Part shown: one piece after another, positions 1 to 59,339 of the stretch
Numbering within the stretch: position 1 is the first letter of the stretch
How the letters are laid out: each line of letters starts with the position of its first letter
From: Geobacter sp. AOG1
Lineage (GTDB): Bacteria; Desulfobacterota; Desulfuromonadia; Geobacterales; Geobacteraceae
Assembly (NCBI RefSeq): GCF_019972315.1
Contig: NZ_BLIZ01000001.1
Span: 2,179,487 to 2,243,486 of the forward strand
Direction of reading: 5' to 3'
DNA: 64,000 nt
Translations under genes and position numbers: made by a program
Notes under the pieces: generated by a model
Told to the model about the DNA's origin: nothing
Database searches by the model: none
Seen by the model: the letters and a program-made list of their open reading frames with translations, nothing else

Positions 1-318
1 TACGGCTCCACCTACGGTGCCACCCAGGCCATCCTTGGCTACTGGGATGCGCCGAGGTACAAGGATTACAGCACCTCCGGTGCCGAACAGCGCTATCCCT
101 TCAAGAAAAAGAACCCCGTGATGGGTGGCCACTTCGGCGCCTCGTCACCCCTGTCCAGCACCCCCATGGGGTCCATCGACGGGCTGTGCACCCCCTGCCA
201 TGACCCCCACGGAGTGAGCCCGACCCTGGGAGCCAACCAGCAGTATGCGGTGCCCCTGTTGAAGGGAACCTGGCTCACCTCCCCCTACAAGGAGGATACG
301 GCACCGGCGAACAATACC
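1..318 (+). repeat. Near-identical block shared with nt 10298-10615
   Basis: Aligned base by base at an offset of 10297, this stretch differs from nt 10298-10615 at only five positions (all after nt 144). Similarity drops sharply after nt 318. It lies inside the haem-bearing part of two tandem paralogues, which fits recent gene conversion or duplication. The left end of the block is outside the window. Confidence 0.9.
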
Positions 319-7788: not shown

Positions 7789-7806
7789 CAGCTGGTTTCA
7801 GCAACA

Positions 7807-7848
7807 ACAACGAGGCGCCTGACAATTCCATGTCAGGCGCCTCGTTGT
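7807..7848 (+). terminator. Strong hairpin after the first cytochrome gene
   Basis: A perfect 18-bp stem (ACAACGAGGCGCCTGACA and its reverse complement) with a 6-nt loop lies 19 nt after the stop codon. No T-run follows, so it may end transcription imperfectly or protect the mRNA 3' end. It separates the two cytochrome genes. Confidence 0.65.
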
Positions 7849-8005
7849 CAGTCTAGTACCGCCGTATGCCCTTTCGTCGTAGTGGTTCAGTCGGCTGTTG
7901 TTAACGGAAAATATTCCCTGTGCAAGAACAAAGGGTGTTTCCAGTTCTGCCTTCAGTCATAGGTATTGCAAGTACGTCAAATTCCACCACCACCTGGAGC
8001 CTGTT

Positions 8006-43411: not shown

Positions 43412-43508
43412 AACTGTCATTGTGTAAGCATGCCCTGTTTGTATTACAGCGAGTAGTGATTGTGTGGAAGTCACAGAAAATGTGCGGACAGATGAAAAAG
43501 GAGGCTCT

Positions 43509-44288
43509 ATGAAAGTAGTCATTCTTGCAGGGGGGTTCGGAACACGGATCAGTGAAGAATCGTATCTGAAACCCAAACCAATGATAGAGATCGGGGAGCG
43601 CCCGATTCTTTGGCACATAATGAAGATATATTCAAGCTATGGTTTTAATGACTTTATCGTGTGCCTGGGGTACAAAGCCTACTGCATCAAGGAGTATTTT
43701 GCCCATTACTTTCTGCATGAATCGGACGTGACGTTCGATTTTCGTAACAATAACGAGCGGGTTATCCATCACCATTCTGCGGAACCCTGGACCGTGACGC
43801 TTGTCAACACGGGGCTTGAAACGATGACCGGGGGGAGGGTTAAGAGGATTCAGCAGTATGTCGGCGATGAACCCTTCATGCTGACCTATGGTGATGGCGT
43901 TGGCAATGTGAATCTCCACGAACTTCTTGCATTCCACAAATCCCATGGCAGGGTTGCCACCGTTACGTCCACCCAGCCAAGTGGTCGTTTCGGCGCTTTG
44001 GAATTGTCAGAGGAAGGCCGGGTTCTGGGGTTTCAGGAAAAACCGAAGGGGGATGGCAACTGGATTAATGCCGGTTTCTTCGTGATGGAGCCCAAGGTAT
44101 TCGACTTTATCGATGGTGATGCGACTGTCCTGGAGAATGAGCCACTGGAGAATCTGGCCCATACTGGTGAATTGATGACGTTCAAGCACAATGGTTTCTG
44201 GCAGCCAATGGACAGCCTGAGGGACAAAAACCAACTTGAAAAACTCTGGAAATCGGGTAAGGCTCCCTGGAAGATATGGGAAGAGTGA
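43509..44288 (+). CDS. rfbF: Glucose-1-phosphate cytidylyltransferase
   Basis: 259 residues, standard for RfbF/DdhA. The N-terminus MKVVILAGGFGTRISEES is the sugar-nucleotidyltransferase motif, and GFQEKPKGDGNWINAGFFV is distinctive of the cytidylyl group. It makes CDP-glucose from CTP and glucose-1-phosphate, the first step to 3,6-dideoxyhexoses. ATG 43509 is preceded by a perfect AAGGAGG. It opens the rfbF-G-H-S-E block. Confidence 0.96.
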   Translation: MKVVILAGGFGTRISEESYLKPKPMIEIGERPILWHIMKIYSSYGFNDFIVCLGYKAYCIKEYFAHYFLHESDVTFDFRNNNERVIHHHSAEPWTVTLVNTGLETMTGGRVKRIQQYVGDEPFMLTYGDGVGNVNLHELLAFHKSHGRVATVTSTQPSGRFGALELSEEGRVLGFQEKPKGDGNWINAGFFVMEPKVFDFIDGDATVLENEPLENLAHTGELMTFKHNGFWQPMDSLRDKNQLEKLWKSGKAPWKIWEE

Positions 44289-44311
44289 CGAAATAGGGGA
44301 AGGAGAAAGGC

Positions 44312-45379
44312 ATGGAGAGCACATTCTGGAAAGGCAAGAGGGTTTTTCTCACGGGGCATACCGGCTTCAAGGGGTCCTGGCTTGTCCTCTGGCTGAACGC
44401 CCTGGGGGCCAAGGTAACCGGCTATGCGCTGGTCCCCCCCACTGACCCGAGCCTCTTTGAACTCTGCCGGCTCGATGAATTAGTCCACTCCCTTGTCGCA
44501 GATATCCGCGACGGGGATACTCTTTCACGGGCGATGGCCGATGCAGACCCCGAAATCGTCATTCATATGGCCGCCCAGCCGCTGGTTCGCGATTCCTACA
44601 AAATTCCCGTCGAGACCTACGCCACCAACGTCATGGGGACCGTGAATCTGCTGGAGTCGGTGCGAAACTGCAACAGCGTTAAGGCCGTAGTCAATGTCAC
44701 GACCGACAAATGCTACGAAAACAGAGAATGGGTCTGGGGGTACCGGGAAAATGAGGCGATGGGGGGGCACGACCCCTATTCCAGCAGCAAGGCCTGTTCG
44801 GAACTGGTCACTGCTGCCTACCGGAGCTCCTATTTCAATCCGAAGAGCTACGAAGACCATGGCGTTGCTCTTGCAACGGCCAGGGCGGGGAATGTCATCG
44901 GGGGGGGGGACTGGGCGACGGACCGGCTTATTCCCGACTGCCTGAGGGCGCTTCTCATGGGGAACAAGATTTCCATCAGGAACCCCCATGCCATCAGGCC
45001 CTGGCAGCACGTTCTGGAACCCTTGAGCGGATATATGCTTCTGGCCCAAAAACTGTATGAGGAAGGACCCCGCTTTGCAACGGGATGGAACTTCGGTCCT
45101 GACGATAACGATGCCAAGCCGGTTGAGTGGATCGTGCGGAGAATGTGCGCAGACTGGGGGGAGAGGGCATCCTATGAAATCGATAAGGGAGAGCACCCCC
45201 ACGAAGCCCATTACCTGAAGCTGGACTGCTCGAAGGTAAAGGCGGAGCTTGGCTGGCATCCCCGGTGGAACCTGAACAAGGCGATCGATAGCAGTATCGA
45301 GTGGGCGAGGGCTTTCCAGCAGAATCGGGACATGCGGGATGTCTGTTTCCAACAGATAGAAGAGTACTCAAAATCATAA
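44312..45379 (+). CDS. rfbG: CDP-glucose 4,6-dehydratase
   Basis: 355 residues. An extended SDR: the NAD-binding motif is TGHTGFKGSWLVLWL and the catalytic YxxxK is in DPYSSSKACSELV. The segment GYRENEAMGGHDPYS is specific to CDP-glucose dehydratases. It forms CDP-4-keto-6-deoxy-glucose. ATG 44312 follows AAGGAG; 23 bp separate it from rfbF. Confidence 0.96.
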   Translation: MESTFWKGKRVFLTGHTGFKGSWLVLWLNALGAKVTGYALVPPTDPSLFELCRLDELVHSLVADIRDGDTLSRAMADADPEIVIHMAAQPLVRDSYKIPVETYATNVMGTVNLLESVRNCNSVKAVVNVTTDKCYENREWVWGYRENEAMGGHDPYSSSKACSELVTAAYRSSYFNPKSYEDHGVALATARAGNVIGGGDWATDRLIPDCLRALLMGNKISIRNPHAIRPWQHVLEPLSGYMLLAQKLYEEGPRFATGWNFGPDDNDAKPVEWIVRRMCADWGERASYEIDKGEHPHEAHYLKLDCSKVKAELGWHPRWNLNKAIDSSIEWARAFQQNRDMRDVCFQQIEEYSKS

Positions 45380-45393
45380 TACCGAGGTACGAG

Positions 45394-46746
45394 ATGGCTA
45401 CACCAGACGATCGCGAACACACATTGCGGGAGCGGGCAATACAGGCGGCTGTGGAGTATTACAACGTCAAGCACAAGGAGAAAAAGCCGTTTGTTGCGGG
45501 GGATCGTATCTCCTATGCGGCCCGGGTTTTCGACGAGAAGGAAATAGCAGCCCTTATCGATTCATCGCTGGATTTCTGGCTGACTACCGGCAGGTACGCG
45601 GCACGGTTTGAAAAGGAGTTCGCCGAGTTCCTGGGGACTAAGGAGTGTTCCCTCACCAATTCCGGCTCTTCGGCAAACCTCCTTGCCTTCATGGCACTGA
45701 CGTCGCCGAAGCTGGGGGAGAGGAAGATCGGGCGGGGAGACGAAGTCATTACCGTCGCCGCCGGCTTCCCGACGACGGTTGCTCCCATCATCCAGTATGG
45801 CGCCGTTCCGGTATTTGTGGACGTGGAACTTCCCACGTACAACGTTGACGTCTCCCAGCTGGAAAAGGCCCTTTCGGACAAGACCAAGGCGGTCATGCTG
45901 GCCCACACGCTGGGAAACCCCTTCGATCTCAAGGCGGTCAAGGAGTTTTGCGACCGAAACAACCTCTGGCTGATAGAGGACAATTGCGATGCATTGGGTT
46001 CCCGCTATCTCTACAATGGTGAATGGCGTTACACCGGCACCATTGGCCATCTGGGGACCTCGAGCTTCTATCCCCCCCATCACATGACGATGGGAGAGGG
46101 AGGGGCGGTGTATACCGGCGACACGCGGCTCAAGCGGCTGGTCGAGTCGTTCCGGGACTGGGGGCGTGACTGCTGGTGCCCTTCCGGGCGGGACGATACC
46201 TGTGGCAACAGGTTCACCCAGCAGTTCGGCGAGCTCCCCTATGGGTACGACCACAAGTACGTCTATTCCCATTTCGGGTATAACCTCAAGGTGACCGATA
46301 TGCAGGCGGCCATCGGCTGTGCCCAGCTAGAAAAGCTCCCCGGGTTCATCGCGGCACGTAAAAAGAACTGGCAGATGCTCCGCGACGGACTTGACGGCCT
46401 GGCCCACAAATTCGTTCTCCCCGAGCCAACGGTGGATGCCGACCCCTCCTGGTTCGGTTTTCTGCTGACCGTGAGGGACGGTGCCGGCTTCAAGCGGGAA
46501 GAGGTCGTGGACCATCTGGAGTCGAAAGGGGTACAAACGCGCATGCTCTTTGCCGGCAACCTCATTAAGCACCCCTGCTTCGACGAGATGCGCCGCTCCG
46601 CACAGGGATACCGGGTTGCCGGCAACCTTGCCACGACCGACAGGATCATGCTTGACACCTTCTGGGTCGGCGTCTACCCGGGGATGACCCCGGAGATGAT
46701 CGGCTTCATGATTGATACGCTGGCGGGATTTGTCCGTGGGAAATGA
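45394..46746 (+). CDS. rfbH: CDP-4-keto-6-deoxy-glucose 3-dehydrase (E1)
   Basis: 450 residues. A PMP-dependent member of the DegT fold in which the usual PLP lysine is replaced by His (FYPPHHMTMGEGG, H229/H230), the defining change of E1. Cysteines C260, C262 and C270 (RDCWCPSGRDDTC) belong to the [2Fe-2S] site of this enzyme. It removes the C3 hydroxyl of CDP-4-keto-6-deoxy-glucose, with electrons from an E3 reductase (RfbI/DdhD) that is not seen in this window. ATG 45394 fits the family start; spacing from rfbG is 14 bp. Confidence 0.96.
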   Translation: MATPDDREHTLRERAIQAAVEYYNVKHKEKKPFVAGDRISYAARVFDEKEIAALIDSSLDFWLTTGRYAARFEKEFAEFLGTKECSLTNSGSSANLLAFMALTSPKLGERKIGRGDEVITVAAGFPTTVAPIIQYGAVPVFVDVELPTYNVDVSQLEKALSDKTKAVMLAHTLGNPFDLKAVKEFCDRNNLWLIEDNCDALGSRYLYNGEWRYTGTIGHLGTSSFYPPHHMTMGEGGAVYTGDTRLKRLVESFRDWGRDCWCPSGRDDTCGNRFTQQFGELPYGYDHKYVYSHFGYNLKVTDMQAAIGCAQLEKLPGFIAARKKNWQMLRDGLDGLAHKFVLPEPTVDADPSWFGFLLTVRDGAGFKREEVVDHLESKGVQTRMLFAGNLIKHPCFDEMRRSAQGYRVAGNLATTDRIMLDTFWVGVYPGMTPEMIGFMIDTLAGFVRGK

Positions 46747-46792
46747 ACCCTGGAGTGAAAGCAGTACGTGCGTTGCAAGGAGCCTGGACGGC

Positions 46793-47683
46793 ATGACCGA
46801 AACAAAGACGGTGTTGCTTACCGGCGGGACCGGGTTTCTGGGCAGCAATTTGCTGATGAAACTGGTTGACCGGGGTTATCGGCTCATCCTCCTGGCACGA
46901 TCCCATTCTGACATGACACGGTTGAAAAGCGTGCTGGACAGGATAGTCGTGCACCGTATCGGTCACTGTTCCCTGGATGACATCTTCGCCAATGAAAAAA
47001 TAGATATAATCATTCACTGCGCAACAAATTACGGGAGGAACCAGAAGGACCCCACCGATCTTCTGGAGGTCAACCTCATGCTTCCGCTGGGTCTTTTGCA
47101 GCTGGGGATAAAGCATAAGGTACCCTGTTTCATCAATACCGATACCATTCTCGATAAAAGGGTAAATTTTTATTCCCTGTCGAAAAATCAGATGAAAGAA
47201 TGGCTCAAGGTGTTTTCAGGGGAAATAACAAGTATCAATGTGGCGTTGGAGCATTTTTACGGACCCGGGGACGATGACTCCAAGTTCGTCACCAACGTTA
47301 TCCACCGGATAGCGGATAACGAAGCCGAAATCGACCTGACACCGGGGAGACAGAAACGGGACTTTATCTACATCGACGATGTGGTGGAGGCCTTCCTCTG
47401 TATAATCGAGCACTGCGGGACCTTGGGGAAAGGGTTTCACCCTTTTGAGATAGGCTCCGGTGACTCCATTGAAATACGGGAGTTTGTGGCGCTCGTGAAA
47501 AAGCTTGCGGGGAATGAGTGCAGCCATTTGAATTTCGGGGCGCTTGATTATCGTAAGAACGAGGTGATGGTTTCTGAGGTGGACCTTTCGGCAATTCATC
47601 GGCTTGGCTGGAGCCCCCGGTTTTCTCTGGAGGAAGGGTTACTGATAACAATCAAACGGGAAAAGGAGAACAGACGCAGGTGA
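46793..47683 (+). CDS. rfbS: CDP-paratose synthase (NAD-dependent sugar reductase)
   Basis: 296 residues, an extended SDR with [17 protein letters not shown] as the cofactor loop and a YSLSK catalytic pair near residue 155. It reduces CDP-3,6-dideoxy-4-keto-glucose. RfbJ (abequose) and RfbS (paratose) are similar reductases; paratose is preferred because the next gene is a clear CDP-paratose 2-epimerase. The order F-G-H-S-E equals that of tyvelose clusters in Salmonella group D and Yersinia. ATG 46793 has AAGGAG ten bases before it. Confidence 0.85.
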
Positions 47684-48702
47684 AAATTCTTATAACTGGC
47701 GGCAGCGGTTTCCTGGGGAGCAATCTGGCGGCACATGCCCTGGGAGAAGGTGACGACCTTCTGGTATTTGACAATCTTTCCCGGAAAGGTTCCGTGGAGA
47801 ATCTCAAGTGGCTCGAGTCCCGGGGCGAATTCCGGTTTGTCCATGGCGACATCCGTAACCAGAACGATGTGGTGCGGGCGGTGTCGGAATTCAGGCCCGA
47901 TGTGGTTTTTCATCTTGCCGGCCAGGTTGCCATGACGACGTCCATTGCCAATCCGCGGCTTGATTTCGAGACGAATGTCATGGGATCCCATAACCTTCTC
48001 GAAGCAGTTCGCCTGCACGTACCCGAAGCGGCGGTCGTCTATTCATCTACCAATAAGGTTTATGGAGACCTGGAACAGTTTTCGTACCGTGAAACCGAAA
48101 CCCGTTATGTCTGCACCGAAAAACCGCATGGGTTCGACGAGACCACCCCCCTGGAGTTCCATTCCCCCTACGGCTGCTCGAAGGGGGCTGCCGACCAGTA
48201 CATGCTCGACTATGCACGCATTTTCGGCCTGAAGACCGCCGTCTTCAGGCACTCTTCCATGTATGGAGGTCGCCAGTATGCCACTTACGACCAGGGGTGG
48301 ATCGGCTGGTTCTGCCAGAAAGCGGTGGAGGCTAAAAGAGGGACGGCAGGTGAGCCGTTTACTATTTCCGGTAACGGCAAGCAGGTACGGGACGTGCTGC
48401 ATGCCGAGGACATGGTGCGGCTCTATTTTGCCGCTGCAGAGAGGATCGATTCCGTAAAAGGAGAAGCGTTCAATATCGGCGGGGGGATGGACAACAGCCT
48501 TTCCCTTCTGGAACTTTTCGCTATCCTCCAGGATATATCCGGCGCGCCTCTCAACTATATACAACTACCCCCCCGGGAGAGTGACCAGCGGGTTTTTGTG
48601 GCGGATATCGTCAAGGCGGAGCGGTTCCTGGGGTGGAAGCCGAACGTGGATGCTGTTACGGGGATTGGGAAAATGGTGGACTGGATCGAACATGGCAAAT
48701 AA
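47680..48702 (+). CDS. rfbE: CDP-paratose 2-epimerase (CDP-tyvelose synthesis)
   Basis: 340 residues. The sequence follows the known tyvelose epimerase closely, for example [60 protein letters not shown] and [19 protein letters not shown]. It turns CDP-paratose into CDP-tyvelose using tightly bound NAD. The GTG at 47680 overlaps the rfbS stop by 4 bp. AAGGAG lies 12 bp upstream, a wide spacing. With rfbF-G-H-S it completes the CDP-tyvelose route except for the E3 reductase. Confidence 0.94.
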
Positions 48703-49390
48703 CATCACCCTGAGCGTCGTGCTCCCGTCCTATCTTGAAGAAGAAAATCTCCGATTGATCCTCCCCCGTCTCCATGATGTGCTGGAAAAACTGACCGATG
48801 CCTATGAGATCCTCGTGGTCGATACGATGACCCCCCTCGACAACACGGTGGACGTCTGTCTGCAGAACAGCGTCAGGTACATCAACAGGGAAGGCGGCAA
48901 TTCCTTTGGCGATGCGGTCAGGACAGGAATCGCGCAGGCACGTGGGAAGTATCTCCTCTTCATGGATGCCGACGGTTCACACCCTCCAGAGTTCATCCCT
49001 AACCTTTATCGCCATGTCGGAGATCACGATGTCGTGATCGCGTCCCGTTACGTAAAGGGTGGGTATACCGAAAACCCCTGGGTCCTTGTTTACATGAGCA
49101 GGGTGCTCAACTTGATCTATTCGGTGGTGCTCAATCTCAAATGCAAGGACGTATCCAACAGTTTCAAGATATACCGGGGTGAACTGCTCAGACCACTCAA
49201 ACTTTATTGCGATAATTTCGACATCGTTGAAGAACTGCTGTACAAACTGAGTAAGCAGAACAAAGGTATCTCTATCAGAGAAGTCCCATTCTCCTTCAAA
49301 AAAAGGATGTTCGGAAAAACCAAGAGAAGTCTGTTTGTTTTTATAGTTTCATACCTGTTTACTCTGCTGAAGCTGCGGTTTGGTAAATAG
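48692..49390 (+). CDS. GT2 glycosyltransferase, dolichyl/polyprenyl-phosphate mannose synthase-like
   Basis: 232 residues. Motifs [32 protein letters not shown] and IASRYVKGG mark the DPM1 subgroup. Only the catalytic domain and one weak C-terminal hydrophobic end are present, as in short DPM1 enzymes. It should load a sugar onto polyprenyl phosphate for the GT-C-like protein encoded next. The ATG overlaps the rfbE stop. The sugar is not known, though mannose or a dideoxyhexose are candidates. Confidence 0.83.
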
Positions 49391-49445
49391 GGCAATATAT
49401 CTTTATACGTCACTCCTATCCCATAACCAAATGTTGAGATTTGCA

Positions 49446-51734
49446 ATGAACAGCTTATATACAAAAATTAGGTTTTACCTTATCTTGTTCATTTTCCCAC
49501 TATTAGGCTTATGTTTTGTAGGTATAATATCTTCTTATATTGCAAAATATTGTTTTGTGCTCTATCGCAACAAGGTCTCTTATCATTATCTGGATTGGGT
49601 ATATCTTTTTCCGTATTATAATGCCAAGTTGTACGATTTAGTATTATTTATAACATTCTTTACATTATCATTCCTCTTTATAATATTATGTACCGTTATA
49701 TTGAACATATTTAGAAAAGAAGCCTCAAAAGATTTTCATGATAATCCTTTAGACCTAAAATTATCACTTCCTTCGTTTATTGGTAGAAATATATGCGAGA
49801 TGTATAATGTATTTTGTTCTCAAAAATATATTAAATCTACAATATCATTATTTAACAACAAGTATTTATCGTTTAATAACGCATGTGTTTTAATTATTAT
49901 ACTGCTCAGTTGTTTGTTTTTTAGCGATATATCTCCATTTATTAAAGGCGATGTAAAAGTATTCAATGAATATATCGATTTTAGTGAGACTGTATTTGTT
50001 CAAAACCAATCCTTAGATAGTATAAAATACATAAAGAATAATTTATTATACCCTCGTTACCAGAATATAGATGAATTCCTAGCGGATAATTCTTCCCAAT
50101 CTGAAACCCAGAATGATCCAAATATTACTAACTGGATGAAAAAAATTGAAAGTAATAGAACAAACGAAGAGTTTATAGCGAAATCTCTTTATGAATATCA
50201 ATTCCAAACGTCATATTCCAGTTATGAATTAATACAGTTTCAAACGATAAATCCAATCAATATGTGGATGAAAGGTGTTCCATACAACAAAACTGGTGGT
50301 TTGTATGGCTTTGCAACCTTAGGAGCAATGAAAACATATTTTGATACTGTAGGATTCAATTTTAAAAAATGGTTCACTTTAATATATTCAATCTATCCGC
50401 TATATATATTTGGACTCGCAATAGCTGCCTTAGTATATTTTAGATCATTACTTGTTGGAACATTTGTATTAATTACTACACTTTTGTTCACTTTTTATAA
50501 TGTCCCTTTGGGATATTTCATAATTGTAACTGGACAGATGCCCGTTAATCCTATTAGGCATTTGTTTGAAATACCTATAATAATATTCATTGGACTATAC
50601 ATTGATAATAAAAAATACTACAACTTACTTTTAGTAAATATTGTTTCTGCAGCAGCTGTTTGGAGTTCTCCTAATTTCGGATTGATTTTGGCTCTATCTG
50701 TGAATTGTACATTGCTAATTGTTGTTTTAGTGGATAAAAATTATAAGCATCTACTTCTGCTAACGTTAACCGGAATATCTGTTTTAATATCGTTTTTGTT
50801 TATACCAAATGTTGACCACGGAGGAATCAAATATTTTCTCGATGGGCATTTTGGCAATCCTATCCCAATAAAATTCTCTATAATTATTTTTACTGTTTAT
50901 TCAATGCTTGCTCTACTATTGATGTTAGTGTCAGTAGTTGGACAGAAAAACAAAGTTTATTACTTGGCTCTTTTTCTAACACCATATACATATTTGATGC
51001 TGTATCATTTCATTTGGCATGGAGATTTACACAGCTTAATTCACGTTTGGCCCACATTTTGTTTATTAGTTCTTTCGTCTTTAATAATGATTAAAGGGTT
51101 GTTTCTAACTGACAAATACGATAATAGCGTCATTTCAATCCTAATACTTATTTCTTTAGTATATTTTGTCCAAACATATAAAGCCTTTAACAAGACCGAA
51201 TCAGATTACTTGGATACATTTAAGAATCATCAATTATACGAATGGAATTTGGGAGCAGTAAATTATTCGACGACAGGATCACCTCGTTATTTAGAAAACG
51301 CAGTTCATCTCATTCATAAATACTCAAAGGAAGAAGGCGGAATTTATCTCATTTCAAGATATGATTTTATATTACCCGTAGTATCTAACACATACAGCAA
51401 AATGTTCTATCCTTGTTTGCAATGGTGGCTTTTTTTACCAGAAGAGAAAATGAATGTGTATAAAGATTTAATGCAAGCCAAACCAGAAATCATCTATATT
51501 GATTCTGATATTTTACTAAATGACCAATTATGGACTGTCAATAATTATATGTCGATAAAATATCCTCATTTCAATAAAGATAATAAGACTCGTTTGTCAA
51601 GATTTAAGGAACTTCGCGATATTTATTTTATGATTGCACCTTATTATGAACTAATAGAAAAAGGAGATATTATCTCTGTTTATAAAAGAAAAAAGATGTC
51701 AAGTATCACTACTGCACCGACACTCCAAAATTGA
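49446..51734 (+). CDS. Low-GC polytopic membrane protein, paralogue of the gene at 39837-42122
   Basis: 762 residues from ATG 49446, chosen because the length then equals its paralogue (761); in-frame starts at 49431 and 49380 are possible. About a dozen membrane helices precede a soluble C-terminal domain. Shared features with 39837-42122 include HQLYEWNLG (HRIYQWDFD there), an IYLISRYDFILPV segment matching IHLLSVYDNVLPF, and QWWLFLPEEKM matching QWFVFTSKERA. The gene is very A+T-rich, unlike its neighbours. A GT-C transferase using the polyprenyl-linked sugar made by the preceding GT2 is likely but not proven. Confidence 0.6.
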   Translation: MNSLYTKIRFYLILFIFPLLGLCFVGIISSYIAKYCFVLYRNKVSYHYLDWVYLFPYYNAKLYDLVLFITFFTLSFLFIILCTVILNIFRKEASKDFHDNPLDLKLSLPSFIGRNICEMYNVFCSQKYIKSTISLFNNKYLSFNNACVLIIILLSCLFFSDISPFIKGDVKVFNEYIDFSETVFVQNQSLDSIKYIKNNLLYPRYQNIDEFLADNSSQSETQNDPNITNWMKKIESNRTNEEFIAKSLYEYQFQTSYSSYELIQFQTINPINMWMKGVPYNKTGGLYGFATLGAMKTYFDTVGFNFKKWFTLIYSIYPLYIFGLAIAALVYFRSLLVGTFVLITTLLFTFYNVPLGYFIIVTGQMPVNPIRHLFEIPIIIFIGLYIDNKKYYNLLLVNIVSAAAVWSSPNFGLILALSVNCTLLIVVLVDKNYKHLLLLTLTGISVLISFLFIPNVDHGGIKYFLDGHFGNPIPIKFSIIIFTVYSMLALLLMLVSVVGQKNKVYYLALFLTPYTYLMLYHFIWHGDLHSLIHVWPTFCLLVLSSLIMIKGLFLTDKYDNSVISILILISLVYFVQTYKAFNKTESDYLDTFKNHQLYEWNLGAVNYSTTGSPRYLENAVHLIHKYSKEEGGIYLISRYDFILPVVSNTYSKMFYPCLQWWLFLPEEKMNVYKDLMQAKPEIIYIDSDILLNDQLWTVNNYMSIKYPHFNKDNKTRLSRFKELRDIYFMIAPYYELIEKGDIISVYKRKKMSSITTAPTLQN

Positions 51735-51941: not shown

Positions 51942-53120
51942 ATGAGCGAACCTGTGTGCCCGAACGGTGCTAACAAACTGAAAACAATCAGTACGATAGT
52001 GATAATCGGTTTTACTCTCTCGGTTATCTTTCATTATATTTTGGCAAATTACTGTGGGCTTGAGCGTTACTTCTACCGGACGTTTCTTTTTGACCCCGCG
52101 GATAGATTCAACGATTTCTACAATATTTATCGGGCTACGGGGAATCTCGATCCCTACTCCGCACCGGTGAGCGTCTATTTCCCGCTCACCTTCATCGTGA
52201 TGTACCTCTTTACCTTGTTTAACGAGCATTTTGCCTTTGCCTTGTTTCTAGCACTGTTCGGTGGGTATTTTGTTTGGTACATCTTTCGGAATATGCCGAC
52301 GGTCCCCATTTCGGACAGATGGATGAGCGTGTTTGTCCTCACGTTCATGTCCTATCCCGTATTATTTAACTTTGACCGCGGCAATGTGGAAGCATTCGTG
52401 TTCATCTGCATAACCCTGTTCATATACTTCCACCGGAAAGGTCAGGACCTGCCGGGTGTGCTCTTCCTGTCCCTGGCAATTGCCATGAAGCTGTACCCCG
52501 GCGTGTTTGTCGTCCTCTACTTGGCAGAGAGAAAATACCGGAACATTATTGTTACTGCCTGCACGACTGCCGTCATCTCCCTGGCAAGTGCCGCCATGCT
52601 CAATGGGGGGATTCTTCACTCTCTCGAAGGGCTGCGGAGAAATCTGGCGGGCTTTAACACCACCTACCTGATTACAAAAGAAGGGCTCCAGCACAACTCC
52701 TCCCTCTACGGAGTCATCCGGATGATTGCCAAGCCTCTTCCCCAAGTGCAGCCGTTTATCGACCATTACACGGTCATTGCCCTGGCTTTTTTCGTGCTGG
52801 TAGCAGCGTATATTGTGCTAAAAGAGGATATACTCTGGAAAAAGGTGGCCCTTCTGGTATTCTCCATGATACTTCTTCCCCAGGTCTCTTTCGATTACAA
52901 ACTGATACATCTTTTTGTGCCGACGATGCTGTTTATCAACACGGGTCACTCTTCCCGGTTTACCAGGGTATTCGCAGTCATGTTCGGCCTGATGCTCATC
53001 CCGAAGGATTATATCCAGTTGGGACACGCTATCAGCATAGCCGTTCTTCTCAACCCCCTTTTGATGGTTGGGATTGCCGTACTCATCCTGCTCGAGCGGT
53101 TTGAACGGAGCCCCCGATGA
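51942..53120 (+). CDS. GT87 (DUF2029)-like membrane glycosyltransferase
   Basis: 392 residues with around ten hydrophobic helices. The first loop has FLFDPADRFNDFYNIYRA, with the acidic residues expected of a GT-C catalytic loop, and the middle shows NFDRGNVEAFVFICITLFIY and KLYPGVFVVLYL, both typical of the GT87 family. Members such as PimE use polyprenyl-phosphate mannose outside the inner membrane. ATG 51942 follows GGGGATTCC. A 207-bp gap before it shows no convincing gene. It overlaps the next gene as ATGA. Confidence 0.75.
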   Translation: MSEPVCPNGANKLKTISTIVIIGFTLSVIFHYILANYCGLERYFYRTFLFDPADRFNDFYNIYRATGNLDPYSAPVSVYFPLTFIVMYLFTLFNEHFAFALFLALFGGYFVWYIFRNMPTVPISDRWMSVFVLTFMSYPVLFNFDRGNVEAFVFICITLFIYFHRKGQDLPGVLFLSLAIAMKLYPGVFVVLYLAERKYRNIIVTACTTAVISLASAAMLNGGILHSLEGLRRNLAGFNTTYLITKEGLQHNSSLYGVIRMIAKPLPQVQPFIDHYTVIALAFFVLVAAYIVLKEDILWKKVALLVFSMILLPQVSFDYKLIHLFVPTMLFINTGHSSRFTRVFAVMFGLMLIPKDYIQLGHAISIAVLLNPLLMVGIAVLILLERFERSPR

Positions 53121-53995
53121 ACATACTCCTTACCGGTGGCAGTGGCTTTATCGGCCGAAACATCCGAGAACAGTTGTCCGGCAGGTACACGGTCATCTCC
53201 CCCGGTCACCGGGAACTCGACCTGACGGATGAAGTGCACGTGCGGGAATTTTTTCTCCGCAATGACATCGACGTGGTCATCCACGGTGCCGTCAAGCCGG
53301 GGCATCGCAATGCGGCAGACCAGTCGGGGCTGCTCGATGCCAATACGCGGATGTTTTTCAACCTCATGGCCAACGCGGACAGATTCCGGAAGATGATCTT
53401 TCTCGGGTCGGGCGCGGTGTACGACATGCGCCACTACAAGGCCAAGATGGAGGAAGGGTACTTCGGTACCCATATCCCTGTCGATCCCCACGGATTCTCA
53501 AAGTATATAATCGCCAAGTATCTGGAGCACCGTCAGAATGTGGTGAAACTCCGCCTGTTCGGCGTCTTCGGCAAGTATGAGGACTACGCTATCAGGTTCA
53601 TCTCCAACGCGATCTGCAAGGCGCTGTTCGATCTTCCCATCACCATCAAGCAGAACAGGCACTTCGATTACCTCTACATCGACGATCTCATGCCGGTCCT
53701 GGAGCACTTTATCGAGAACCGGGCTGAACATGTCGCCTACAACGTCACCCCCGATGCGGCGGTCGACCTCTATTCCCTTGCGGAAATGGTGCGGTGCAGG
53801 TCAGGGAAGGATCTGCCTATTGTCGTCGGCGAACCGGGACTCGGACCGGAGTACAGCGGTGACAACAGGCGACTACGTGCAGAAATTCCGGGACTGACGT
53901 TCACACCGCTCGTCGAGGCTATTGACCGGTTGTATGGATGGTATGAGAATCGTAAAGACTCTCTCAACAGAGAGCTGTTGCTCACGGACAAATAG
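53117..53995 (+). CDS. NAD-dependent epimerase/dehydratase family protein
   Basis: 292 residues, extended SDR. It has the NAD-binding motif ILLTGGSGFIGRNIREQL and the catalytic YIIAK (within HGFSKYIIAKYLEHR). The substrate-binding half shows RHFDYLYIDDLMPVLEHF. It probably reduces or epimerises a nucleotide sugar for the O-chain. If the ThDP enzyme downstream acts like YerE of yersiniose synthesis, this could be the following ketone reductase (YerF-like); that is speculation from gene order. ATGA overlap with the previous gene. Confidence 0.75.
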   Translation: MNILLTGGSGFIGRNIREQLSGRYTVISPGHRELDLTDEVHVREFFLRNDIDVVIHGAVKPGHRNAADQSGLLDANTRMFFNLMANADRFRKMIFLGSGAVYDMRHYKAKMEEGYFGTHIPVDPHGFSKYIIAKYLEHRQNVVKLRLFGVFGKYEDYAIRFISNAICKALFDLPITIKQNRHFDYLYIDDLMPVLEHFIENRAEHVAYNVTPDAAVDLYSLAEMVRCRSGKDLPIVVGEPGLGPEYSGDNRRLRAEIPGLTFTPLVEAIDRLYGWYENRKDSLNRELLLTDK

Positions 53996-54055
53996 GCGGA
54001 CATGCCGTGAGTCGGAATCTTCAGGAAAGTCACTAACAATTGAGAGCTCATTAAC

Positions 54056-55855
54056 ATGAAAATTAAGGTTTCGGACTATATAGCCAGTTTTATGGTTGAA
54101 AACGCCATTACCGATCTGTTTACCGTGACCGGCGGCGGGGCCATGCATCTGAACGACTCGTTCGGTAACCACCCAAAGCTGCATTCCATCTATAATCATC
54201 ACGAGCAGGCCTGTGCCATTGCCGCCGAAGCTTATGCGCGTTTGACCGGAAAGATTGCGCTGGTCTGTGTGACCAGCGGGCCGGGCGGAACAAATGCCCT
54301 TACCGGTGTTATGGGGGGATGGGTTGATTCGATTCCCATGTTTGTCGTATCGGGACAGGTAAAATTCTCCACAACGATTGCCTCAACCTCTGTCCCCTTG
54401 AGACAATTGGGGGATCAGGAGTTCAATATCGTGGATGCCGTGAGGTGCATGACGAAGTATTCCGTCATGGTTACTGACCCGGAGTCGATAGCGTACCACC
54501 TTGAGCGTGCACTCTTCCTTGCTACCCATGGCAGACCTGGGCCGGTCTGGCTCGATATCCCGTTAAATGTGCAGGGAGCTACAGTTGAAACAGATTCTCT
54601 CAAGCACTACGACCCCAAGGAGGATGCGGGAGAGATCCTTCCCCCCCCCTCGAACAGTGTGTATGAAGAACTGCTTGACAGAATAAGAGCCGCAAAAAAA
54701 CCGGTAATTCTTGCCGGCAGCGGGATTCGTCTTTCCGGCGCATACGAATCATTCGTTGAGCTCCTCGACTATCTCCATGTCCCCGTTGTCACCGCATGGA
54801 ACTCCCACGACGAACTTTGGGACGATCATCCGTTGTATGGCGGGCGTCCTGGAACAATTGGCACGCGTGGCGGTAACTTTGTAACTCAGAACGGTGACCT
54901 GCTTCTTTCGCTTGGCTGCAGGATGAATATCCGCCAGATAAGCTATAATTGGGAAAATTTCGCTAAAAATGCGTATCTTGCGGCCGTTGACATCGATGAA
55001 GGCGAGCTTAAAAAGCCGACCCTGTCGGTAGATATGCCGATTCATGCCGATCTTGCCGATTTTTTGCCGGGGCTTCTTGCTGCGGCAAAAAGAACCCCGA
55101 TACGGTGCAATGACAAGTGGCTGATGTGGTGCAGAGAGATGCATCAAAAATATCCTGCGGTGTTGCCCGAATATTATACGACTAATTCACCGGTTAACCC
55201 GTACGTCTTCATGGACAAACTTTCCCGGCATCTGGAAGAAGGGGATGTTACCGTTACCGGTAACGGTAGTGCCTGCGTCTGCTCATTCCAGGCCATGATC
55301 GTGAAAAAGAACCAGCGCCTTTTCACCAATTCCGGTTGCGCAAGCATGGGATACGGACTCCCTGCGGCACTTGGTGCTGCGGTAGCCAGAAGAGGTGAGC
55401 GTGTAATTTGCCTTGACGGCGATGGAAGTATTCAGATGAACATTCAGGAATTGCAGACGATCATCCATAACTGGCTGAATTTGAAAATCTTCTGGTTGAA
55501 CAACGATGGGTACCACTCTATTCGTCAGACTCAGACCAATCTCTTTGCTGCGAGGTTCTGCGGTGTCAATGCATCAAGCGGTATCAGCTTTCCCGATGCT
55601 GAAAAGATTGCGTCTGCATATGGGTTTGAATTTATCAGAATTGATGCTATAGACACCATAGATGAAAAAATTGGGAAAGTCCTTTCGTCGAGGAACCCGG
55701 TACTCTGTGAAGTGCTGCTTGATCCGGCACAGGGGTTTGCGCCGAAGCTCTCCGCTCGTTCGCTGCCTGATGGAACGATGGTTTCGCCTTCGCTGGAAGA
55801 TATGTTCCCGTTTTTATCAGAAGAAGAAATGAAAACAGATGTATACAAGGGGTAG
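54056..55855 (+). CDS. Thiamine-diphosphate-dependent enzyme, acetolactate synthase-like
   Basis: 599 residues with the three-domain layout of the acetohydroxyacid synthase family. The catalytic Glu is in HHEQACAIAAEAYARLTG, and the ThDP motif GDGSIQMN...WLNNDGY is seen around residue 458-490. It should decarboxylate a 2-keto acid such as pyruvate and pass the two-carbon unit to an acceptor. Setting in a sugar cluster argues against amino-acid synthesis; YerE of Yersinia, which adds an acetyl branch to CDP-3,6-dideoxy-4-keto-glucose, is an attractive model since rfbF-G-H make that type of substrate. The next gene begins 3 bp later. Confidence 0.82.
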   Translation: MKIKVSDYIASFMVENAITDLFTVTGGGAMHLNDSFGNHPKLHSIYNHHEQACAIAAEAYARLTGKIALVCVTSGPGGTNALTGVMGGWVDSIPMFVVSGQVKFSTTIASTSVPLRQLGDQEFNIVDAVRCMTKYSVMVTDPESIAYHLERALFLATHGRPGPVWLDIPLNVQGATVETDSLKHYDPKEDAGEILPPPSNSVYEELLDRIRAAKKPVILAGSGIRLSGAYESFVELLDYLHVPVVTAWNSHDELWDDHPLYGGRPGTIGTRGGNFVTQNGDLLLSLGCRMNIRQISYNWENFAKNAYLAAVDIDEGELKKPTLSVDMPIHADLADFLPGLLAAAKRTPIRCNDKWLMWCREMHQKYPAVLPEYYTTNSPVNPYVFMDKLSRHLEEGDVTVTGNGSACVCSFQAMIVKKNQRLFTNSGCASMGYGLPAALGAAVARRGERVICLDGDGSIQMNIQELQTIIHNWLNLKIFWLNNDGYHSIRQTQTNLFAARFCGVNASSGISFPDAEKIASAYGFEFIRIDAIDTIDEKIGKVLSSRNPVLCEVLLDPAQGFAPKLSARSLPDGTMVSPSLEDMFPFLSEEEMKTDVYKG

Positions 55856-55858
55856 AAT

Positions 55859-57454
55859 ATGAGATCCATACGTATTCTTGATTGTACTCTTCGCGACGGC
55901 GGCTTTGTCAATGACTGGAATTTTGGTCTGGGGAGCATGAAAAGCATTATCAGTCGTCTTGACAAAGCCGGCATTGATATGATCGAAATCGGTTTTATCG
56001 ATGAACGTCGTCCCTATGACCCCGACAGGTCTATTCTGCCCGATAGCGGTTCGATTTCTCCCCTGCTGCGAGGACTCGATATCGATAACGCGATGATCCT
56101 CGCGATGATCGATTATGGTACCTGTGATATCAGCAGAATATCGTTGCAGAAGGATTCGTGTATCGACGGTATCCGGGTAATATTCAAGAAAAAAGATCAG
56201 GACGCGGCCCTTGAGTATCTGGCTCAACTACAGGAAAAGGGCTACAAAACATTTGTGAATCCCGTTTCGATTACCGGGTATTCAGACGGCGATGTCATCA
56301 GTCTTATCGAAAAAATCAACAAACTCGACCCCTATGCTGTTGCCATCGTTGACACGTACGGCCTTATGCATAGCAAGGAGCTCCTGCATTATTACCAGCT
56401 TTTTGATACCTATCTGAACAAGTCGATAACCATTGGCTATCATGCCCATAACAACTTTCAGCTGGTATACGCCAGTTCCATTGAGTTATGCGAACTTGAA
56501 AGTGACCGTAACCTCGTCATTGACAGTTCCCTTTACGGCATGGGGAAAGGGGCTGGAAACGCAAACACTGAACTGATCGCAATGTTCTTCAATGAAAATT
56601 TTTCCAAAAACTATGCGATAGAACACCTGCTTGAAGCGATTGATGTTGACATACTGAAAGAGTACGCAAAAGCCCCTTGGGGATACTCTCTCTTATACTA
56701 TCTCGCTGCATCGAACGATTGCCATCCAGAATATGTAAAATACCTCCTTGCCAAGAAAACTCTGGCAGTAAAATCGGTAAACGATTTGCTTGAAACGTTA
56801 CCGGAAGGAAACAAGCTGTCATTCAACAAAGAGCTTATTGAAAAAAAATATCAGGAACATCAAAATGTCTCGTGCAATGATGAAACCTCGTACCTTCGTC
56901 TTGCAAAAGATATAGAAAATAGAAATATTTTGCTTCTTGGCCCTGGAGCATCCATCATAAATGAGTCTGACAGTATTGTGTCGTATATTGATAAATATAA
57001 ACCTGTAGTAATATCTATCAATTTTATTAACGATCTATACCCTATTGATTATGTATTTATGGGGAATTCGAAAAGGTATAGCCAGTTTTTTCATAGGATT
57101 TACGGTGATGGTATAAATGTCAAAGTAATTTGTACATCCAATGTATCACCATCAAGCAAGCAAATAGATTATATTTTCAACTATGGGGCATTAACTAATG
57201 ATACAGAATCAGTACGTGACAATCCGTTGCTTATGGTCATGAAGATTTTGAAAAAATGCGCTGTACAGGAAATAGTGCTTGCGGGATTTGACGGGTATAC
57301 TGACAATAATGAACAGAATTATTACAGCGATTATATCCCTTTGTTGTATTGCCAGGATGACGTATTGAAGAGGAATAGTGCAATGACTGAATGCATCAAG
57401 GCTATCGGTAAAGACATGAGCATTTCCAGCCTTACAAAAACCATGTATTTGTGA
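55859..57454 (+). CDS. HMGL-like (DRE-TIM) aldolase fused to a C-terminal Rossmann-like domain
   Basis: 531 residues. The N-terminal TIM barrel (about 1-270) begins ILDCTLRDGGFVNDWNF, the DRE-TIM signature with the metal-binding Asp and a catalytic Arg, and has YHAHNNFQL with the metal-binding His pair. This is the 4-hydroxy-2-oxovalerate aldolase type that joins or splits pyruvate-like units. From about residue 350 a second domain starts (ILLLGPGASIINESDSIVSY), resembling DUF115-like sugar-cluster domains; the DNA there is clearly richer in A+T, which suggests a fusion. It almost abuts the ThDP gene and probably works with it. Function in LPS sugar synthesis is inferred. Confidence 0.72.
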   Translation: MRSIRILDCTLRDGGFVNDWNFGLGSMKSIISRLDKAGIDMIEIGFIDERRPYDPDRSILPDSGSISPLLRGLDIDNAMILAMIDYGTCDISRISLQKDSCIDGIRVIFKKKDQDAALEYLAQLQEKGYKTFVNPVSITGYSDGDVISLIEKINKLDPYAVAIVDTYGLMHSKELLHYYQLFDTYLNKSITIGYHAHNNFQLVYASSIELCELESDRNLVIDSSLYGMGKGAGNANTELIAMFFNENFSKNYAIEHLLEAIDVDILKEYAKAPWGYSLLYYLAASNDCHPEYVKYLLAKKTLAVKSVNDLLETLPEGNKLSFNKELIEKKYQEHQNVSCNDETSYLRLAKDIENRNILLLGPGASIINESDSIVSYIDKYKPVVISINFINDLYPIDYVFMGNSKRYSQFFHRIYGDGINVKVICTSNVSPSSKQIDYIFNYGALTNDTESVRDNPLLMVMKILKKCAVQEIVLAGFDGYTDNNEQNYYSDYIPLLYCQDDVLKRNSAMTECIKAIGKDMSISSLTKTMYL

Positions 57455-57603
57455 GTCGATACCCTGTCTGAGCTGTTCTGTCAAAATAGCCCAACCACCT
57501 TGTGGCTCGTTGTATCCGTTATATTTCTGGACAAATAATGAACTGAAAGATAGTTACGACGACGCTGATACATTAAGTAGCTATAAGTCGGAGGTAAATA
57601 GTA

Positions 57604-58272
57604 ATGTTAGGTCGAACGGCCTTGATAACGGGTGCATCCAGAGGGATCGGCAGAGCTATTGCTGATCTCTTCAGATCCCAGGGGGCGACTGTACTGGTAC
57701 CAAACCGGCAGGAGATGGATCTCGCATCGACCGAATCGATCGAACGGTATTGCGCGGGCTTGGGGGAGAGGGTCGATATTCTGGTGAACAATGCGGGGAT
57801 CAACCCCCTGGCTGCGGCCGGTGAGTTCAGTGACGCCGACCTGGCCGGGACCCTGCAGGTCAACCTGATCGCTCCCATGGTTCTGCTCCGGGCACTTTCT
57901 CCCGGCATGGCAGAGCGGGGGTACGGCCGTATCGTCAACATAAGCTCCATCTGGAGCGGAGTCTGTAAGCCCCGCCGGTTTGTCTACGCAACCACCAAGT
58001 CGGGGATCAACGGCATGACTCGCGCGGCAGCCGTGGAACTGGCCGGATCGGGGGTGATGGTCAATGCGGTGGCGCCGGGCTTCGTGGCTACCGAGTTGAC
58101 GCGCCAGAATAATTCGGAGGATGAGCTGCGCAAGATAACCGAGAACATCCCCGCTGGCCGCCTTGCGGAACCCAAGGAGATTGCCGAGGTCGTGGCGTTT
58201 CTCTGTTCGTCCCGCAACAGCTTTATCGTCGGCCAGACCATATTTGTGGACGGGGGGTTCACGTGTCAGTAA
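57604..58272 (+). CDS. Short-chain dehydrogenase/reductase
   Basis: 222 residues, classical SDR. The cofactor loop is TGASRGIGRAIADLF, NNAG is at about residue 62, and the catalytic Ser and YxxxK are in NISSIWSG and YATTK. A good GGAGGT precedes ATG 57604. The stop overlaps the cyclase-like gene by 10 bp, so the two are coupled and probably act in one pathway, reducing or oxidising a keto-cyclitol or keto-sugar. A fatty-acid role (FabG-like) is less likely in this place. Confidence 0.8.
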   Translation: MLGRTALITGASRGIGRAIADLFRSQGATVLVPNRQEMDLASTESIERYCAGLGERVDILVNNAGINPLAAAGEFSDADLAGTLQVNLIAPMVLLRALSPGMAERGYGRIVNISSIWSGVCKPRRFVYATTKSGINGMTRAAAVELAGSGVMVNAVAPGFVATELTRQNNSEDELRKITENIPAGRLAEPKEIAEVVAFLCSSRNSFIVGQTIFVDGGFTCQ

Positions 58273-59339
58273 TCACCATTCATTCCAATGTACGGGACTA
58301 CTCGGTCCATTTTCAGGACAGCGCGCGATTTATCCAGGAGTTTTCGCGGTTTCCCGAGCGTCTGTTTGTCATTGATGAAAATGTCTGGCGGCATTACGGT
58401 GGCGGTTGCCTCAGCTGTATTCCCGAAGGTGAGCGGATGGTGTTTTCGGTTAGCGAGGAGCGGAAGGGGCTGGACAGCGTCATGGAGATCTACGATCGGC
58501 TGATGGACCGGGCTGCCAAGAAAAACATGACGCTCATCTCTCTCGGGGGGGGAATCGTCCAGGACGTGACAGGATTCGTCGCTTCCACCCTGTATCGCGG
58601 CCTCAACTGGGTATTCGTCCCTACAACCCTGCTGGCCCAGGCCGATAGCTGTATCGGCAGCAAAACATCGCTTAACTACAAGCGGTTCAAGAATCTGATC
58701 GGCACCTTCTATCCTCCTGCCGAAGTGCACATCCATTCACCCTTTCTCCAGACCCTCGAAGAAGCCGATTTTCTCAGTGGTCTGGGGGAGGTGGTCAAAC
58801 TCCACCTGATGGGGGGAGAGAAGACGGCCGCGGCTCTCGCAGGGAGCCTGCCGGCGGTGCTGGAACGGAACCCGGACGCCCTGCTGCAGGCCACACGGAC
58901 ATCCCTCTCCATCAAGCTCAGCTACATGGAGGGGGACGAATTCGACACCGGTCGGCGCAATCTCCTCAACTTCGGGCACTGTTTCGGCCATGCCCTGGAG
59001 ACGGTCAGCAGTTACGCCATCCCCCACGGACAGGCGGTGGTCATCGGCATGCTGTTCGCGAATATCGCCGCGGTGCAGCGCGGTCTGCTCGCCCCGTCAC
59101 TCGCCAGCCACCTGGCCGATGTTCTCCTCAGGAAGAGTCTGTCGATTCCGCTTCGCAAGGAGTATTTCGGGAGCGATGCCATCCTGGCAGCGATGAAGCA
59201 GGACAAGAAACGAACCGGCGACGGGTTGGTGGTCGTCATGATGAGGAGCGATTATACGTTCGAGAAACTGACGGATTATTCCCCCGATGAACTGGTCGCG
59301 ACAACGGCCGAATTGATGGAATCGCTACGGGTGTCGTAA
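58263..59339 (+). CDS. Sugar-phosphate-cyclase-family protein (3-dehydroquinate synthase-like)
   Basis: 358 residues from GTG 58263, which has a G-run just upstream and overlaps the SDR. The NAD-binding GGGIVQDVTGF, VPTTLLAQADSCIGSKTSLN and metal-binding NFGHCFGHALE motifs identify the dehydroquinate synthase superfamily. Two places differ from ordinary AroB: GGKTGVN is GSKTSLN, and HGEAV is HGQAV. Such changes occur in cyclases with other substrates (sedoheptulose- or glucose-phosphate type). In this gene setting a carbocyclic or related sugar is more likely than shikimate, though AroB activity is not excluded. Confidence 0.78.
   Translation: MSVITIHSNVRDYSVHFQDSARFIQEFSRFPERLFVIDENVWRHYGGGCLSCIPEGERMVFSVSEERKGLDSVMEIYDRLMDRAAKKNMTLISLGGGIVQDVTGFVASTLYRGLNWVFVPTTLLAQADSCIGSKTSLNYKRFKNLIGTFYPPAEVHIHSPFLQTLEEADFLSGLGEVVKLHLMGGEKTAAALAGSLPAVLERNPDALLQATRTSLSIKLSYMEGDEFDTGRRNLLNFGHCFGHALETVSSYAIPHGQAVVIGMLFANIAAVQRGLLAPSLASHLADVLLRKSLSIPLRKEYFGSDAILAAMKQDKKRTGDGLVVVMMRSDYTFEKLTDYSPDELVATTAELMESLRVS

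Follow-up and report, generated by a model that had tools for sequence, protein, structure and literature searches.

A putative cassette for a long-branched, caryophyllose-type sugar in the O-antigen cluster of Geobacter sp. AOG1

Results

A recurring five-gene cassette

A set of five adjacent genes in an O-antigen cluster of Geobacter sp. AOG1 is a recurring cassette which, on a slight balance of probability, makes a 3,6-dideoxyhexose with a long branch at C-4, of the caryophyllose type. The set lies in a 64,000-nt stretch of assembly GCF_019972315.1 (contig NZ_BLIZ01000001.1), which is called the window here and whose positions serve as its coordinates. Five open reading frames (ORFs), all on the plus strand and almost touching, span 53117–59339 and encode an extended short-chain dehydrogenase/reductase (SDR), a thiamine diphosphate (ThDP) enzyme, a DRE-TIM aldolase fusion, a classical SDR and an AroB-like protein. 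The ORF listing of the window, together with Pfam and TIGR04425 matches, confirms this arrangement and the coordinates given in the initial annotation.

An alignment of three AroB-like proteins, used as the query against named genomes, returned 61 loci. Score, context and tree position assign 24 of them (L070–L092 and L121) to the cassette type, and we treat the remaining 37 as canonical aroB; the 20 of these that were placed in the tree all fall on the canonical side. Every cassette locus contains a C3-adding enzyme (24/24), 23 contain a related SDR (all but L089) and 20 contain a ThDP gene. The four loci that lack the ThDP gene (L070, L071, L080 and L089) sit on contigs of 3 to 12 kb. In contrast, none of the 37 other aroB loci contains a ThDP, HpcH-like, DRE-TIM or NeuB-like gene at E 1e-4, and the stretches of 10 include an SDR match of about 100 bits. 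The cassette loci span 12 phylum-level groups (by title), and rfbF, rfbG or rfbH is seen in 12 of them. These counts indicate that the grouping is not due to chance. The neighbourhood comparison suggested at the outset thus finds the genes together, which removes the objection that they might not co-occur elsewhere.

The 399 genomes of the order of Sulfuriferula give a similar picture. An HpcH-like profile matches four genomes (G202, G289, G311 and G544), all of which have YerE-like and rfbF-like neighbours and three of which also have the SDR and AroB-like genes. TIGR04425 matches nine genomes (E 3e-77), five of them beside an SDR gene (G202, G289, G311, G541 and G543); the remaining four matches lack neighbours of this kind and resemble canonical aroB. 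G543 carries ThDP, NeuB-like, SDR, AroB-like and FGGY kinase genes together. G541 combines an HpcH/HpaI aldolase (HpaI model, 182 bits against a cut-off of 369), a KdsB-like cytidylyltransferase (272 against 255 bits), an SDR and an AroB-like protein whose TIGR04425 score (473) exceeds all others encountered; a ThDP gene was not found in its 19.9 kb stretch, and a plasmid search with its AroB-like protein at E 1e-40 gave no match. The G544 locus (L151, 10530–16578) holds two YerE-like ThDP genes and one HpcH-like gene in one cluster.

The ThDP enzyme is YerE-like and probably uses a long donor

The ThDP protein (54056–55855, plus strand) contains all three TPP domains. In a search of solved structures, its best relative is 8rph (418 bits, compared with 258.5 bits for the top acetolactate synthase), which is JanthE, reported as a YerE-like enzyme (PMC12188165). 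The window protein is classed as YerE-like because its sequence is nearer to this characterised enzyme than to acetolactate synthase. The genes for cytidine diphosphate (CDP)-4-keto-3,6-dideoxyglucose lie in the same cluster, upstream of the cassette at 43464–46746 on the plus strand, and each exceeds its curated cut-off: rfbF, glucose-1-phosphate cytidylyltransferase (43464–44288; TIGR02623, 430 against 300 bits); rfbG, CDP-glucose 4,6-dehydratase (44312–45379; TIGR02622, 519 against 278 bits); and rfbH, CDP-4-keto-6-deoxyglucose 3-dehydrase (45301–46746; NF011936, 735 against 423 bits). The rfbH ORF as listed overlaps rfbG, and its real start is probably further inside. The first proposal of a single cassette tied to these genes through a YerE-like step is borne out.

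YerE and ErwE decarboxylate 2-oxo acids and join what remains to CDP-4-keto-3,6-dideoxyglucose (PMC12247030). According to the same report, YerE itself takes pyruvate as the donor, and ErwE, which serves erwiniose, refuses pyruvate and prefers acids like 4-hydroxy-2-oxobutanoate. MMAR_2332, the caryophyllose enzyme, is reported there to resemble ErwE in donor preference, as tested so far with an aldehyde acceptor. Because pyruvate aldolases yield such 4-hydroxy-2-oxo acids, the donor of the window enzyme is probably a longer acid of this kind supplied by the cassette aldolase; the two-carbon transfer first assigned to it is demoted on the example of ErwE and MMAR_2332 (PMC12247030).

The extended SDR gene (53117–53995, plus strand; PF01370 (Epimerase), 3.5e-24) has relatives that adjoin the ThDP gene in many cassette loci. 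Its product is a candidate reductase for the new ketone in the branch, presumably in a YerF-like role.

Unrelated enzymes occupy the aldolase slot

The aldolase gene (55859–57454, plus strand) encodes a DRE-TIM (HOA-like) pyruvate aldolase fusion of 531 residues, which matches HMGL-like (7.1e-19) in its first half and the putative aldolase 3dxi (4.3e-24). The aldolase comprises residues 1 to about 330, and residues 334–531 match no Pfam family at E 1. The AlphaFold2 model has a mean predicted local distance difference test score of 44 and was left unused. With 71 bits against the 4-hydroxy-2-oxovalerate aldolase model TIGR03217 (cut-off 286), the protein is predicted to be a relative of that enzyme and not a member. 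The fusion, including its C-terminal domain, also occurs in L072, a locus in a Geobacteraceae metagenome-assembled genome (MAG), where it is 58% identical.

In the 24 genome cassette loci, the C3-adding enzyme is HpcH-like in 22, DRE-TIM in one (L072) and NeuB-like in one (L077). The three kinds are unrelated to each other, and known members of these families make 2-keto-3-deoxy acids. The DRE-TIM aldolase query found no match among viral sequences.

Related aldolases also occur in other settings. On a Desulfobaculum bizertense plasmid (L045, NZ_CP090010.1, 3980–10014), genes for a split transketolase and for a DRE-TIM aldolase 34.6% identical to that of the window come after rfbF, rfbG and rfbH; here the transketolase may take the place of the YerE-like enzyme, and the viral locus L211, which has a split transketolase instead of the ThDP gene, may show a similar swap. 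On a Leisingera caerulea plasmid (L046, NZ_CP081095.1, 9001–12003), an aldolase with a long C-terminal extension adjoins a 3-deoxy-manno-octulosonate cytidylyltransferase and a HAD hydrolase, which suggests that aldolases with such an extension make ulosonic acids. L043 (G042, 2767–10439) has the order rfbF-rfbG-rfbH-ThDP-acetaldehyde dehydrogenase-DmpG-type aldolase, and no AroB-like gene was found within its 10.9 kb stretch; it looks like an erwiniose-type locus supplied with 4-hydroxy-2-oxovalerate.

The AroB-like protein belongs to a separate clade

The last cassette gene (58263–59339, plus strand) encodes a protein with DHQ_synthase and DHQS_C domains that scores 403.0 bits with TIGR04425 (cut-off 400) and 259.6 bits with the aroB model TIGR01357, short of its cut-off of 305. 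NCBI names the TIGR04425 family AroB-related putative sugar phosphate phospholyase and labels it 'cyclizing'. Only two of 58 relatives pass the TIGR04425 cut-off, those of the window genome and of G188 (G162 is near, at 396.7 bits), so such a gene is rare in the family. The genome (3.68 Mb, one contig) contains one further aroB elsewhere, which scores lower and is placed among canonical aroB by the tree. In a tree of 65 proteins, a single branch with support 100/99 separates 32 canonical aroB from 33 cassette proteins, including that of Mycobacterium marinum; long-branch warnings apply to positions within the cassette side. An enlarged tree with viral and other additions again divides 62 cassette proteins (four of them identical to others) from the 32 aroB by one branch (0.999, FastTree).

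Dehydroquinate (DHQ) synthase oxidises its substrate at C5, eliminates phosphate and performs a reduction, after which the intermediate is considered to cyclise readily. For the positions checked, including the carboxylate-binding Arg and Lys, we use what we take to be the DHQ synthase numbering and catalytic roles. Every one of them is conserved in the window protein. Across the 62 cassette proteins they are conserved as well, except that K179 is altered in four and K315/K316 is gapped in one; the carboxylate-binding Arg and Lys are present in all 62. Gln100 and Cys130 are likewise found in 62/62, in contrast to 0/32 and 1/32 canonical aroB, respectively.

We propose that the AroB-like protein is a non-cyclising phospholyase. 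The ThDP decarboxylase and the KdsB-like cytidine monophosphate (CMP)-ulosonate synthetase of G541 both need an intact 2-keto acid, and ring closure would consume the 2-keto group, in conflict with both kinds of downstream partner. A carboxylate substrate whose 2-keto group stays intact would suit the two of them. The preceding gene encodes a classical SDR (57604–58272, plus strand; PF13561, 2.4e-50), for which we propose reduction of the 6-keto group that remains after the AroB-like step.

The caryophyllose locus of Mycobacterium marinum contains the same kinds of genes

The cassette chemistry pointed to caryophyllose, and M. marinum was therefore examined for the gene set; Trinickia caryophylli is another maker of this sugar. 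Mycobacterium genomes were located through PE-protein matches, which gave a sample of 297 genomes of the genus, 15 of them with a YerE-like match at E 1e-72. One published mmar_2318 primer matches a single genome (G1123), the neighbourhood of which contains exact matches to all seven mmar_2318/2319 primers and all six mmpL12 primers, and G1123 is taken as M. marinum on these grounds. Its locus (L167) carries AroB-like, SDR, HpcH-like, ThDP, GT2 and rfbF genes on one strand and rfbH and rfbG on the other, with each of the three rfb genes above its cut-off. The AroB-like protein scores 310.9 with TIGR04425, below the cut-off of that model, and 244.5 as aroB; an aroB of its own lies at a separate place in the genome.

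The ThDP enzyme of this locus is MMAR_2332 (PMC12247030) and the GT-A glycosyltransferase is MMAR_2333 (PMC4403928); by adjacency, MMAR_2331 should correspond to the HpcH-like gene. Strains mutated in MMAR_2331, 2332 or 2333 are reported to accumulate LOS-II*, a lipooligosaccharide (LOS) without the terminal caryophyllose (PMC5706390). Caryophyllose is described there as 3,6-dideoxy-4-C-[D-altro-1,3,4,5-tetrahydroxyhexyl]-D-xylo-hexopyranose, with an acyclic, methyl-ended C6 branch, and its branch is also given as acyclic in PMC7821131.

Genome-wide, eight of the 15 mycobacteria with a YerE-like match have an HpcH-like gene, and seven of these eight have an AroB-like gene (>300 bits). Neither gene was found genome-wide in the seven NeuB-type mycobacterial genomes, at the same threshold for AroB-like; gastriose may be the product of such loci. 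Whole-genome searches place the AroB-like gene of L165 and the HpcH-like gene of L171 just beyond their 20 kb stretches. A HAD phosphatase gene lies beside the ThDP and C3-adding genes in six mycobacterial 20 kb stretches (five NeuB-type and G1135) and in none of the six that show an AroB-like gene, all of which have an FGGY kinase gene beside it. This distribution suggests that the terminal phosphate can go one of two ways: it is either hydrolysed, giving CH2OH, or eliminated with reduction, giving CH3. The rule is not absolute, since the non-mycobacterial loci L087 and L089 carry both HAD and AroB-like genes.

Cassettes in viral contigs

Two scans of IMG/VR yielded 27 loci with an AroB-like gene (within L196–L224), some of which are near-duplicates by look (L202/L203, L205/L206 and L215/L216). 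An SDR is present in all 27 and a ThDP gene in 24; of the latter, 23 have an HpcH-like gene (one cut by the contig end) and one has a NeuB-like gene (L214). Nine of ten flanking proteins from five loci match PHROGs, with replication genes at four of the five: a clamp loader (L201), a polymerase processivity factor (L208), DnaB-like helicases (L214 and L219) and a UvsX-like recombinase and primase (L214). The single flanking protein of L215 that was tested has no PHROGs match. We read these contigs as T4-like phages from their flanking genes, in which the cassette perhaps alters the host surface or the virion.

Isolated phages offer distant relatives. Among 50,697 records, the AroB-like protein of L197 matches 15 at no more than 36% identity, the annotated ones being named 3-dehydroquinate synthase, and the HpcH-like protein of L208 matches none. 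The ThDP protein has 52 matches, which show about 31% identity or less among the 25 listed; the annotated ones carry the name acetolactate synthase.

Other features of the window

Two nicotinamide adenine dinucleotide (NAD)-dependent epimerase genes at 46712–48702 have relatives that are also paired in the cassette loci L078, L080 and L083, and perhaps specify a second sugar in common with them. A 784-residue protein without a Pfam match is encoded at 49380–51734, where the local G+C content is about 32%, compared with about 60% at the window ends; the stretch around it looks recently acquired. Two very long ORFs occupy the start of the window (118–7788, 2556 codons, and 7898–14572, 2224 codons).

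Discussion

From these gene sets we infer a route, and with it the substrates, the lack of ring closure, the AroB-like step ahead of the SDR step and the precise product made by this organism. RfbFGH would provide CDP-4-keto-3,6-dideoxyglucose. The DRE-TIM aldolase would join pyruvate to an aldose phosphate, in the simplest case erythrose 4-phosphate, to give a 3-deoxy-2-ulosonate phosphate like 3-deoxy-D-arabino-heptulosonate 7-phosphate (DAHP). The AroB-like protein would then oxidise this compound, eliminate the phosphate and re-reduce, and the product would be protonated and leave uncyclised as a 7-deoxy-6-keto-2-ulosonate, the 6-keto group of which the classical SDR would reduce to give 4,5,6-trihydroxy-2-oxoheptanoate. 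The YerE-like enzyme would decarboxylate this acid and attach the C6 unit to the CDP-keto-sugar at C4; reduction of the ketone newly formed in the branch would fall to the extended SDR. The structures agree with this scheme: 4,5,6-trihydroxy-2-oxoheptanoate is DAHP (pyruvate plus erythrose 4-phosphate) with CH3 in place of CH2OP, and after decarboxylation, transfer and reduction it corresponds to the caryophyllose branch, CHOH-CH2-CHOH-CHOH-CHOH-CH3. The yersiniose-like sugar proposed in the initial annotation was right in kind as a branched sugar; judged by M. marinum caryophyllose, the branch is probably long and not of two carbons.

More broadly, TIGR04425-type proteins may form a non-cyclising branch of the DHQ synthase superfamily that works together with an SDR. 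The pair would deoxygenate phosphorylated 3-deoxy-2-ulosonates at their terminal position, with neither radical nor nucleotide-sugar chemistry. The resulting methyl-ended chains would feed YerE-like enzymes in the making of long-branched sugars as well as CMP-ulosonate pathways, across many phyla and in phages. We hold this generalisation to be evenly balanced.

The same long-branched sugar could arise in another order, with the AroB-like protein and SDR working either ahead of the aldol reaction, on a C4 aldose phosphate, or after the ThDP step, on a CDP-linked phosphorylated branch. The gene set leaves the order unfixed, and the FGGY kinase found beside the AroB-like gene in the mycobacterial stretches could work at either stage. 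Such an order is possible but unlikely: the conserved carboxylate-binding Arg and Lys, with the roles presumed above, point to a free ulosonate as the substrate, and the AroB-like protein and SDR have a CMP-ulosonate enzyme as their partner in G541, in a stretch where no ThDP gene was found.

A cyclising role for the AroB-like protein, which would yield a carbocyclic residue or quinate-like acid attached to the dideoxyhexose or fused with it, appears doubtful. The conserved DHQ synthase active site, the 'cyclizing' label of the family and the lack of any other AroB found in G206 speak for it. Against it, Gln100 and Cys130 set all cassette proteins apart from canonical aroB, a closed ring would leave the YerE-like and KdsB-like partners without the 2-keto group that they need, and M. 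marinum, with like kinds of genes, makes the acyclic caryophyllose branch (PMC5706390, PMC7821131). The bradyrhizose-like, carbocyclic residue raised initially is therefore unsupported; the available text on bradyrhizose describes an 11-gene cluster with a dTDP-glucose 4,6-dehydratase (PMC4743980) and supports a link neither way.

It is improbable that the ThDP enzyme and rfbFGH make an ordinary yersiniose with a two-carbon branch while the aldolase, SDR and AroB-like protein make a second, separate residue. Pyruvate is the donor of YerE itself (PMC12247030), and other genes lie between the ThDP gene and the HpcH-SDR-AroB-like trio in L076, L078 and L081. However, the two parts occur together in 20/24 genome loci and 24/27 viral loci, and a mutant of the neighbour of MMAR_2332, HpcH-like by adjacency, is reported to have the same phenotype as that of MMAR_2332 (PMC5706390). 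The notion that ordinary amino-acid and shikimate genes lie in the O-antigen cluster by chance is highly improbable: every protein has a housekeeping relative, but the genome has a separate canonical aroB, the ThDP protein is nearest to JanthE, the AroB-like protein falls outside canonical aroB and the co-occurrence is conserved across loci. The simple shikimate or amino-acid reading is rejected in view of the co-occurrence counts and the separate aroB.

Several observations weigh against the long-branched sugar or against parts of the proposed route. The window aldolase is not of the common HpcH-like type, its C-terminal domain matches no Pfam family, and a genome-wide search found no HpcH-like gene in the window genome. 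The equivalence of DRE-TIM and HpcH-like enzymes in the C3 slot rests on position and on L072. Twelve stretches taken from the phylum around less close DRE-TIM relatives include no cassette-type AroB-like gene and a YerE-like gene only in L043, so membership of the DRE-TIM aldolase family does not by itself link an enzyme to the cassette. The HpcH-like family itself barely fits HpcH_HpaI (27.6 against 25 bits), with solved relatives at E 0.001. Of the 12 cassette stretches without rfb genes, nine are under 16 kb, but L085, L087 and L090 are 19 to 21 kb. HpcH-like and ThDP genes occur without an AroB-like gene in G1135 and, with the genome searched for the cassette type, in G544; conversely, the viral loci L212 and L213 have SDR and AroB-like genes with no ThDP or C3-adding gene. 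The conserved active site is equally expected of a cyclising enzyme. In L089, on a 7.8 kb contig of a Planctomycetota MAG (G206), HpcH-like, HAD and AroB-like genes occur with no ThDP or SDR gene; in this genome, which as a MAG is possibly incomplete, a chorismate synthase is present and no further AroB was found, so its AroB-like protein might serve the shikimate pathway. In M. marinum, the numbers MMAR_2329–2331 are assigned by adjacency, and PMC5706390 leaves undecided whether MMAR_2331 acts in the synthesis or the transfer of caryophyllose.

The proposal gives a concrete account of how caryophyllose and its relatives could acquire their methyl-ended side chain, and it provides a role for a so far unassigned family that NCBI labels 'cyclizing'. 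It also implies that unrelated C3-adding enzymes serve one pathway slot. The signature of a YerE-like ThDP enzyme, an HpcH-like, DRE-TIM or NeuB-like enzyme, an SDR and an AroB-like protein would predict long-branched surface sugars in many bacteria and in viral contigs, where the cassette genes might change the host surface.

Compared with known systems, YerE-like branching of a CDP-keto-sugar with aldolase-derived donors is of a known kind. The M. marinum caryophyllose locus shares with the window rfbF/G/H, a YerE-like ThDP enzyme, a C3-adding aldolase-type enzyme, an SDR and an AroB relative that favours TIGR04425 over aroB. It differs in having an HpcH-like enzyme instead of DRE-TIM, an FGGY kinase alongside, a mycobacterial LOS instead of an O-antigen cluster as its setting, and an AroB-like protein of another subgroup that falls below the TIGR04425 cut-off. 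The yersiniose A pathway has in common the CDP-4-keto-3,6-dideoxyglucose acceptor, the YerE-like ThDP enzyme and, if YerF is what we take it to be, the extended-SDR reductase candidate. It differs in its pyruvate donor and two-carbon branch, and the available text describes no aldolase, classical SDR or AroB-like step for it (PMC12247030). The erwiniose pathway likewise supplies a YerE-like enzyme, ErwE, with 4-hydroxy-2-oxo acids, and no AroB-like step is described for it in the same text (PMC12247030). AroB and the sugar phosphate cyclases share the sequence family and catalytic residues with the cassette proteins, which differ by their separate clade, by Gln100 and Cys130 and by a context that wants an uncyclised 2-keto acid. 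The DRE_TIM HOA-like aldolases resemble the window enzyme in the aldolase domain; 3dxi, a putative aldolase, is likened to it by sequence only, and L046 likewise has a long C-terminal extension. None of the literature matches listed links caryophyllose or erwiniose with a dehydroquinate-synthase-like gene. As far as the literature search allows, the cassette adds four things to these systems: a step by the AroB-like protein and the SDR, C3 enzymes that can replace one another, a connection with the M. marinum mutants, and copies in viral contigs.

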